Assembly (NCBI GenBank): GCA_030065055.1
Contig: JASJDS010000045.1
Coordinates: 1 to 36,791, forward strand
Reading direction: 5' to 3'
DNA: 36,791 nucleotides
From: Calothrix sp. MO_192.B10
GTDB lineage: Bacteria; Cyanobacteriota; Cyanobacteriia; Cyanobacteriales; Nostocaceae
The notes beneath the pieces were generated by a model. It saw only the letters and a list, made by a program, of their open reading frames with translations. It was not told where the DNA came from and did not search any database. The translations under genes and the position numbers were made by a program. Positions 24,893-32,675 of the stretch are shown one piece after another (positions within the stretch are counted from its first letter, which is position 1; every line of letters begins with the position of its first letter).

Positions 24893-24911
24893 ATCAAGTT
24901 AAAAGTCAAAA

Positions 24912-24970
24912 GTGAGCCATTGCGGTGGACGGGTTCCCCGGCATAAAGCAAATGGCGAACTCCGAAGGAG
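24912..24970. repeat. Short palindromic element with conserved core, copy 1
   Basis: GCCATTGC (24916-24923) and GCAAATGGC (24948-24956) pair as arms around a core containing GGTGGACGGGTTCCCCGGC. The element interrupts a run of AGTCAAA units. The core is shared almost exactly with 32616-32648, but the outer arm sequence is different there and again self-complementary. Confidence 0.8.
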
Positions 24971-25004
24971 TCAAAAGTCAAAAGAGCTTTATTTTAAACT
25001 CTTC

Positions 25005-32595: not shown

Positions 32596-32675
32596 GTCTC
32601 ACGCAGAGGAGGACACTTGCGGTGGACGGGTTCCCCGGCATAAGCAAAGTGTCCGTCGCGCAGAGGCGCAGAGAG
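32596..32675. repeat. CGCAGAGG repeat interrupted by a 49-bp palindromic element (copy 2)
   Basis: The outer repeat GTCTCACGCAGAGG | CGCAGAGGCGCAGAGAG matches 25005-25035 (inverse) exactly. It is split by an insert from 32610 to 32658. The insert has arms GGACACTTGC (32611-32620) and GCAAAGTGTCC (32644-32654) and the GGTGGACGGGTTCCCCGGC core also found at 24924-24942. No target duplication is obvious. Confidence 0.85.

Follow-up and report, generated by a model that had tools for sequence, protein, structure and literature searches.

A very small hairpin repeat in Calothrix sp. MO_192.B10 as a probable non-autonomous mobile element

The small dispersed repeats SDR1-8, described by Elhai in 2008, are reportedly found in Nostoc punctiforme and its relatives, with conserved parts of 21-27 nt that are dispersed in heterocystous cyanobacteria. 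Three SDR families are said to share a structure with compensatory changes, and SDRs are said to nest in their own copies and to occupy heptad and minitransposon hosts, recent mobility having reportedly been inferred for them. We know of no identified mover for such elements. The Rickettsia palindromic elements are palindromic inserts that are translated in frame within protein-coding genes. The precise insertion of SDR5 into HIP1 is mentioned in one report (PMC4390886), and non-autonomous mobility in trans has been proposed for REP/REPIN elements (PMC3116915, PMC3733652).

We analyzed a stretch of 36,791 nt from Calothrix sp. MO_192.B10 (contig JASJDS010000045.1), hereafter called the window, which contains two copies of a hairpin repeat. 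With a probability of roughly three in four, we take these copies to be a very small non-autonomous mobile element, the body of which is one hairpin of ~45 nt, often accompanied by a second mini-hairpin. By its description, the family appears to match the "small dispersed repeats" kind of Elhai 2008. The letters of the core and the encoded peptides had no match among the papers searched.

Two copies of the hairpin in the window

The 19-nt core GGTGGACGGGTTCCCCGGC is located at 24924-24942 (copy 1) and 32621-32639 (copy 2), in both cases on the forward strand, and a scan of the window with up to three mismatches allowed gave 2 matches versus 0.00 expected by chance. The inner hairpin of the core occupies 24930-24933 and 24937-24940 in copy 1, and 32627-32630 and 32634-32637 in copy 2. 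The initial annotation had described a fixed core enclosed by arms that differ between the copies and complement each other within each copy. This arrangement was confirmed at its coordinates and is far above chance, with GCCA and TGGC found at 24916-24919 and 24953-24956 and GGACAC and GTGTCC at 32611-32616 and 32649-32654. The stems proved to be longer than described, however. On the forward strand, GCCAT and TGC of copy 1 (24916-24923) pair with GCA and ATGGC (24948-24956, bulged A at 24951), and GGACACT and TGC of copy 2 (32611-32620) pair with GCA and AGTGTCC (32644-32654, bulged A at 32647), one unpaired A separating the two 3' stem segments in each copy.

Both copies lie within other repeats, as had also been noted. 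Copy 1 belongs to a composite of 58 nt (24913-24970, forward strand) between GTCAAAA heptads, which extend over 24897-24912 on its left and 24971-24984 on its right. The composite consists of T, GA-hairpin-G and AACTCCGAAGGAG, its boundaries being inferred from the heptad period (heptad flanks AAAAG and TCAAAAG), and it includes a second small hairpin, AA-CTCC-GAA-GGAG, at 24958-24970. Forward-strand genes for an extracellular solute-binding protein (PF01547; 23579-24892) and a binding-protein-dependent transport permease (PF00528; 25072-25989) are located upstream and downstream, respectively. Copy 2 is a forward-strand inserted unit, GA-GGACACT-TGC-core-ATAA-GCA-A-AGTGTCC-GTC (32609-32657, with boundaries ambiguous by one G), in a CTCACGCAGAGGCGCAGAG repeat. 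The host repeat reads TCTCACGCAGAG on its left (32597-32608), unfilled versions of which are known, and GCGCAGAGGCGCAGAGAG on its right (32658-32675), both on the forward strand. The neighboring genes encode an Asp/Asn beta-hydroxylase domain protein (PF05118; 31682-32500, reverse strand) and a member of the amidohydrolase family (PF01979; 32831-34300, forward strand). With regard to a CGTC end tag, which was compared for the two window copies only, copy 2 ends in CCGTC and copy 1 in GGCGAA.

The RNA folding energy was good for copy 2 (z = -3.29) and weak for copy 1 (z = -1.60), fold energies were unimpressive for some copies of the family, and an Rfam search of the window returned 0 matches above the curated threshold. 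The strength of the case for a hairpin derives from the wider set of copies.

Distribution and covariation of the stem

The genome of MO_192.B10, called the Calothrix genome below, contains 91 exact copies of the core, with 0 for a reversed-pattern control, and all 91 were inspected together with their flanks (L002 and L008 were dropped as duplicates of L001 and L007). There were 53 exact cores in a near strain (G002) and 12 in genome G001, which corresponds to Calothrix rhizosoleniae SC01 by matching positions. The exact core was present in 17 of the 59 genomes searched, including that of Calothrix: 17 of the 35 genomes of the same family and 0 of the 24 of other families in the order. A scan of the collection gave at least 84 named stretches with the exact core, which we take to be from Nostocales apart from three that belong to a Pleurocapsa MAG. 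This MAG, outside Nostocales, carries the core at L152, L163 and L179, with a CTACTTG heptad context for two of them, and transfer or misbinned contigs may account for its presence there. Copies were also observed in plasmid-type DNA, at L131 (CyRepA1 replication gene) and L135 (a Cylindrospermum plasmid record), and such plasmid-borne copies are a possible route between species.

The ~45-nt unit begins with GA, and its two-part stem closes a loop that itself contains an inner hairpin; the bulged partner strand and G or GT follow. The outer stem segment measures 5-6 bp, the second segment 3 bp and the loop 24 nt (23 in one class), and the 3' side runs from the 3-bp partner through one bulged base to the outer partner. 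Sixty distinct full copies from the Calothrix genome and the 84 named stretches listed aligned gap-free, 22 of 178 copy rows having been excluded from the comparison of arms (20 nested, 2 at contig ends). They formed two length classes, in which one additional stem pair goes with the loss of one A from the loop, the commoner class (A2) containing 41 copies and the second (A3) 18; L056 fitted neither and was left out. The core letters are constant in this set by design, given that the search was performed with the exact core.

Paired cells accounted for 94.8% of the outer stem in A2 (96.5% including four inner pairs, which were fixed by the exact-core search) and 88.9% in A3 (92.3% including the inner pairs). 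The covariation score was 0.233 in A2, versus 0.072 ± 0.011 for shuffled and a maximum of 0.057 for slid arms, and 0.206 in A3, versus 0.074 ± 0.017 and 0.065, respectively; 0 of 500 shuffles reached the observed score in either class, the shuffles ignoring relatedness of the copies. Changes on both sides affected six of the eight outer pairs in A2 (37 cells, with 4 wobble-only and 17 unpaired) and four of the nine pairs in A3 (22 cells, with 2 wobble-only and 18 unpaired), where cells count sequences and not events. Further pair types were not above the shuffles, being as high in 55 of 500 for A2 and 404 of 500 for A3, and the A3 pairs with double changes were as high in 50 of 500. The covarying stem around a fixed loop that had been proposed from the two window copies therefore holds in both classes of the wider set, in which the arms covary by the same shuffles instead of being complementary no more often than chance.

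The outer stem and its one-base bulge are kept through many paired changes. Forty-two of the 59 rows were fully paired, and the bulge, counted in 53 well-paired rows after omission of the 6 rows with at least three mismatches, was a single A in 46, C in 4 and T in 3. The CA/TG step is nearly fixed while neighboring stem positions vary, and the last stem pair, invariant in A2, is variable in genome G005 (TGT/ACA, TCG/CGA), which has further paired arms such as GCCAGTCG/CGAACTGGC and GCCAGTGT/ACAACTGGC. These features bear on the alternative that the arms were matched by mutation and not by selection, through template switching at an imperfect palindrome (quasi-palindrome correction), which we consider very unlikely. 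Such correction would fit the excess of paired over one-sided wobble changes (37 to 4 in A2, 22 to 2 in A3), but it should erase the one-base bulge, which persists in the 53 well-paired rows as the arms change, and the CA/TG step stays near-fixed amid its variable neighbors. As a sole cause it was rejected because the bulge is kept.

Among 60 loci of G005 and genome G016, obtained with a model search that rewards the structure, 57 were parsed with no more than two mismatches, and they included 40 distinct loops. Stems were perfect in 31 of 40 copies in G005 and in only 3 of 20 in G016; the hairpin is thus not kept everywhere. Related loops also occur that equal the core-bearing loop in length and layout and differ from it in the inner stem. 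Locus L235 of G001 has the same host repeat as window copy 2, similar arms and a different loop, TGTGGGCGGGTTCCCCGACTTGAG. At L020, L031, L065 and L185, the 5' arm fits the outer and the 3' arm the inner copy of two nested hairpins, a pattern suggestive of nested pairs collapsed by recombination, and some unpaired rows (L020, L185) are explained by such collapse.

Precise insertion, nesting and reading frames

The near strain G002 shows about 90-98% identity to the Calothrix genome at matched flanks. Forty-one Calothrix loci and the two window copies, of the 91, were compared with it, and only loci without the insert were listed. Exact empty sites in G002 were obtained for L056/L262, where the Calothrix genome has a 45-nt insert between TTTGG and TGATTC; L077/L263, with a 50-nt insert between AAAAG and TGCC; and L050/L260, with an 81-nt composite between CACGCAG and AGACGC. 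Neither arm is present in these three sites, and both arms therefore travel with the insert; target-derived arms, one arm being copied from the insertion site, were rejected on the same grounds. Target-site duplication, a feature of DDE-type MITEs, was not found at L056, and L050 showed a one-base ambiguity only. At the exact empty-partner sites, the left flanks of which end in AG or GG, the element has entered directly after purine-G, no target sequence is duplicated, and both arms are intrinsic to the insert. In 102 distinct contexts, which remained after 76 of 178 rows had been dropped as cut, unpaired or identical in left context, the base at -2 next to the stem was G in 93 cases and that at -1 was A in 94. 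The L077/L263 copy, which has unusual ends, is embedded in the palindrome GGCACTTAAAAGTGCC, with a Y1 transposase fragment next to it.

L034/L276 is a filled/empty pair by alignment coordinates. The pairs L054/L277, L027/L275, L048/L290 and L070/L272 lie within tandem repeats and differ in unit number or downstream repeat, the insert boundaries at these four being inferred; L027, L048 and L070 share the heptad context of copy 1, and their G002 counterparts lack the insert and differ in heptad number. Both window copies are absent from G002, which has other DNA in place of copy 1 and an imperfectly preserved site for copy 2. A GGACAC-armed copy of G002 (L191), equivalent to copy 2, fills the repeat that neighbors window copy 1, a repeat left unfilled in the Calothrix genome. 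The host repeat is missing or much altered in G002 at L003, L017, L035, L037, L052, L080 and other loci, which give no boundary, and the empty partner of L012 may be a paralogue. The initial annotation had favored a selected hairpin rather than passive duplication; the selected hairpin is supported, but the contrast is incomplete, in that the hairpin itself appears to constitute a mobile element that is inserted precisely and with both arms.

Copies nest at recurrent sites within themselves and their relatives. Counted per locus, and thus not all independent, copies of the Calothrix genome and named species were interrupted immediately after ATAAAG at 20 loci and after GGTGGACGG at 33. Of 20 loci of G001 picked from the best model scores, 10 contained an exact 51-nt unit. 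It occupies one and the same position of the inner hairpin in four different host cores, is also found in one short tandem repeat, and always follows GG. This unit, which carries a T-G wobble, looks like a recent amplification, although some of the ten have a host in common (groups of four and three). The second mini-hairpin that follows the main one has matching arms that vary among copies (CCC/GGG, CTCC/GGAG, CCCC/GGGG, CTC/GAG), with 55 instances when only matching arms are counted, and units that include it measure 57-58 nt.

An alternative is that the hairpins have no mobility of their own and are passengers of larger repeats, spread by these and by recombination or gene conversion among them. 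Many copies do share host repeats, L020, L031 and L065 resemble collapsed nested pairs, and a repeat that is filled in one strain and unfilled in the other at a given locus could reflect conversion. This account is nevertheless highly improbable, given that exact empty partners exist for L056 and L077, neither of which is in one of the usual short host repeats (their flanks, both in IS200/IS605-type DNA, share no 15-mer with the other Calothrix loci read), and that one unit occupies the same site in four different G001 host cores. Some of the apparent spread is carriage in larger repeats or gene conversion, several of the G001 copies sharing a host.

Copies traversed by open frames are located in tnpB (L011 and L116 by Pfam; L056 by NCBIfam, below its cut-off) and in genes for an MFS transporter (L023), a CobN/Mg-chelatase family protein (L050, the Pfam query being the 400 residues before the insert), the CyRepA1 plasmid replication protein (L131), an HPr-PtsI fusion (L154), a WD40 protein (L156), an HSDR_N protein (L177) and a DUF429 protein (L106); because this set was selected by open frames, it gives no measure of the frequency of gene disruption. 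The copies in L116 and L177 are positioned after the recognised domains and may be only a tail of the protein. The G002 proteins at L050 and L056 are without the added residues, and their sequence extends to either side of the insertion point. The tnpB frame of L056 comprises 214 residues from stop to stop in Calothrix, versus 396 in its insert-free G002 counterpart. Counted by hand, the unit lengths of 45, 57 and 81 nt are divisible by three, whereas that of the heptad-borne 58-nt form is not. In-frame copies in unrelated proteins (L050, L131, L154, L156, L011) share the added peptide core EP(L/V)AVDGFPGISK(V/L)A.

Between co-directional genes, 12 copies were sense and 19 antisense in the Calothrix genome, versus 27 and 13, respectively, in other species; within called ORFs, many of which are short and possibly spurious, the corresponding numbers were 3 and 21 in Calothrix and 9 and 8 elsewhere. 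No consistent transcription-strand bias was thus apparent across the Calothrix genome and other species. The location of 67 of the 91 Calothrix copies outside called ORFs, and of copy 1 between two transporter genes, would suit a host regulatory hairpin (a terminator, RNA-stability or protein-binding site) that lies in spreading repeats by coincidence. We regard such a role as a poor prospect, however, given that the hairpin varies in presence between near strains, is inconsistently oriented to flanking genes, has no Rfam match in the window, and occurs also in open frames of genes and nested in its own copies.

Candidate movers and comparison with known systems

In the mechanism that we hold most likely, an enzyme supplied in trans would recognise the folded single strand; copies would then stay mobile only if their arms are complementary, and paired changes would be kept while the sequence drifts. 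The wobble counts are too few to distinguish RNA from single-stranded DNA as the folded form: wobble versus A-C mismatches numbered 3 versus 2 in the A2 and A3 rows and 12 versus 5 in G005 and G016, differences that are not significant, and a choice by wobble asymmetry was dropped.

Our best guess for the putative enzyme, though less likely than not, is a Y1/HUH-type transposase acting on single-stranded DNA, by analogy with REP/IS200-type hairpins. The Calothrix genome has 24 Y1_Tnp matches, some of them fragments. With the model search scoring 150 of 2849 candidates in this genome (150 per genome elsewhere), a hit was found within about 250 bp of 4 of the 24, at inconsistent positions, and no pair of hairpins flanking any of the 24 was seen. 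An association with Y1 by distance was set aside as weak and confounded by shared intergenic habitat. Y1_Tnp was present in 32 of the 34 genomes searched, and its presence is therefore uninformative. A strong lagging-strand preference would give rise to two-arm strand segregation, and the finding of none in G005 (p = 0.78) or G016 (p = 1.0), where origins were unlocated and a weak bias would be missed, counts against our favored reading.

Movement via an RNA copy, with a transcript that folds and inserts or primes at the target before a reverse transcriptase makes DNA, seems rather unlikely to us; the abstract of Elhai 2008 is said to raise the idea of an RNA intermediate for such repeats. The hairpin with its bulged A and the clean insertion without duplication are consistent with such a route. 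The wobbles that outnumber A-C mismatches by 12 to 5 in G005 and G016, together with the T-G wobble of the G001 unit, fit folding of this strand, but the difference is not significant, and the sense lean of 27 to 13 in other species is opposed by the antisense lean in Calothrix (12 versus 19). Hits for RVT_1 numbered 10 in Calothrix, 8 in G002 and 4 in G005, with its 31 of 40 perfect stems, and 0 in G016, with its 3 of 20. G001 also has 0 RVT_1 hits, yet it contains at least 80 model matches among 150 candidates scored, and one unit is repeated there exactly in several contexts; the pattern of stem decay in G016 and G005 relative to RVT_1 counts cuts against this argument from G001. Among the 34 genomes, the 10 with the exact core had Y1 in 10 and RVT_1 in 9, and the other 11 family members had Y1 in 11 and RVT_1 in 6; the counts over the 34 genomes were set aside as not discriminating except for G001.

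We also consider it doubtful, though conceivable, that the folded strand is moved by an enzyme outside both the RVT_1 reverse transcriptases and the GTAG-specific RAYTs, to sites after purine-G that often lie in the inner hairpin of a relative. Folded-strand movement of this kind, if true, would be a transposition route not yet described, and the elements would be among the smallest mobile ones known. A repeat of ~45 nt that moves cleanly, keeps its fold, nests in itself and sits in open frames is close to the lower size limit of mobile elements. The near strain pair with exact filled and empty sites and G001, with many copies and no RVT_1, make the question of the mover testable.

With regard to REP/REPIN elements and their RAYT (Y1) enzymes, the family resembles them in consisting of small hairpin repeats with alternative complementary stem bases, and differs from them in having one 45-nt hairpin with a 24-nt structured loop and GTAG in 0 of 102 distinct contexts (PMC3116915, PMC3733652). 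The tetranucleotides beside the stem on its 5' side were GTGA in 48 and AGGA in 22 of these contexts, and no dedicated Y1 gene flanking the family was found at the 24 Y1_Tnp matches of the Calothrix genome. The Rickettsia palindromic elements, likened here by description only, share the in-frame inserts, the unit in Calothrix being shorter (45-81 nt) and from another phylum. The SDRs, as reportedly described, are alike in three respects: a short conserved part dispersed in heterocystous cyanobacteria, found here in 17 of 35 genomes of the family; a common secondary structure with compensatory changes, which the arms of this family also display; and nested insertion together with heptad-repeat hosts, both of which were observed for the present copies.
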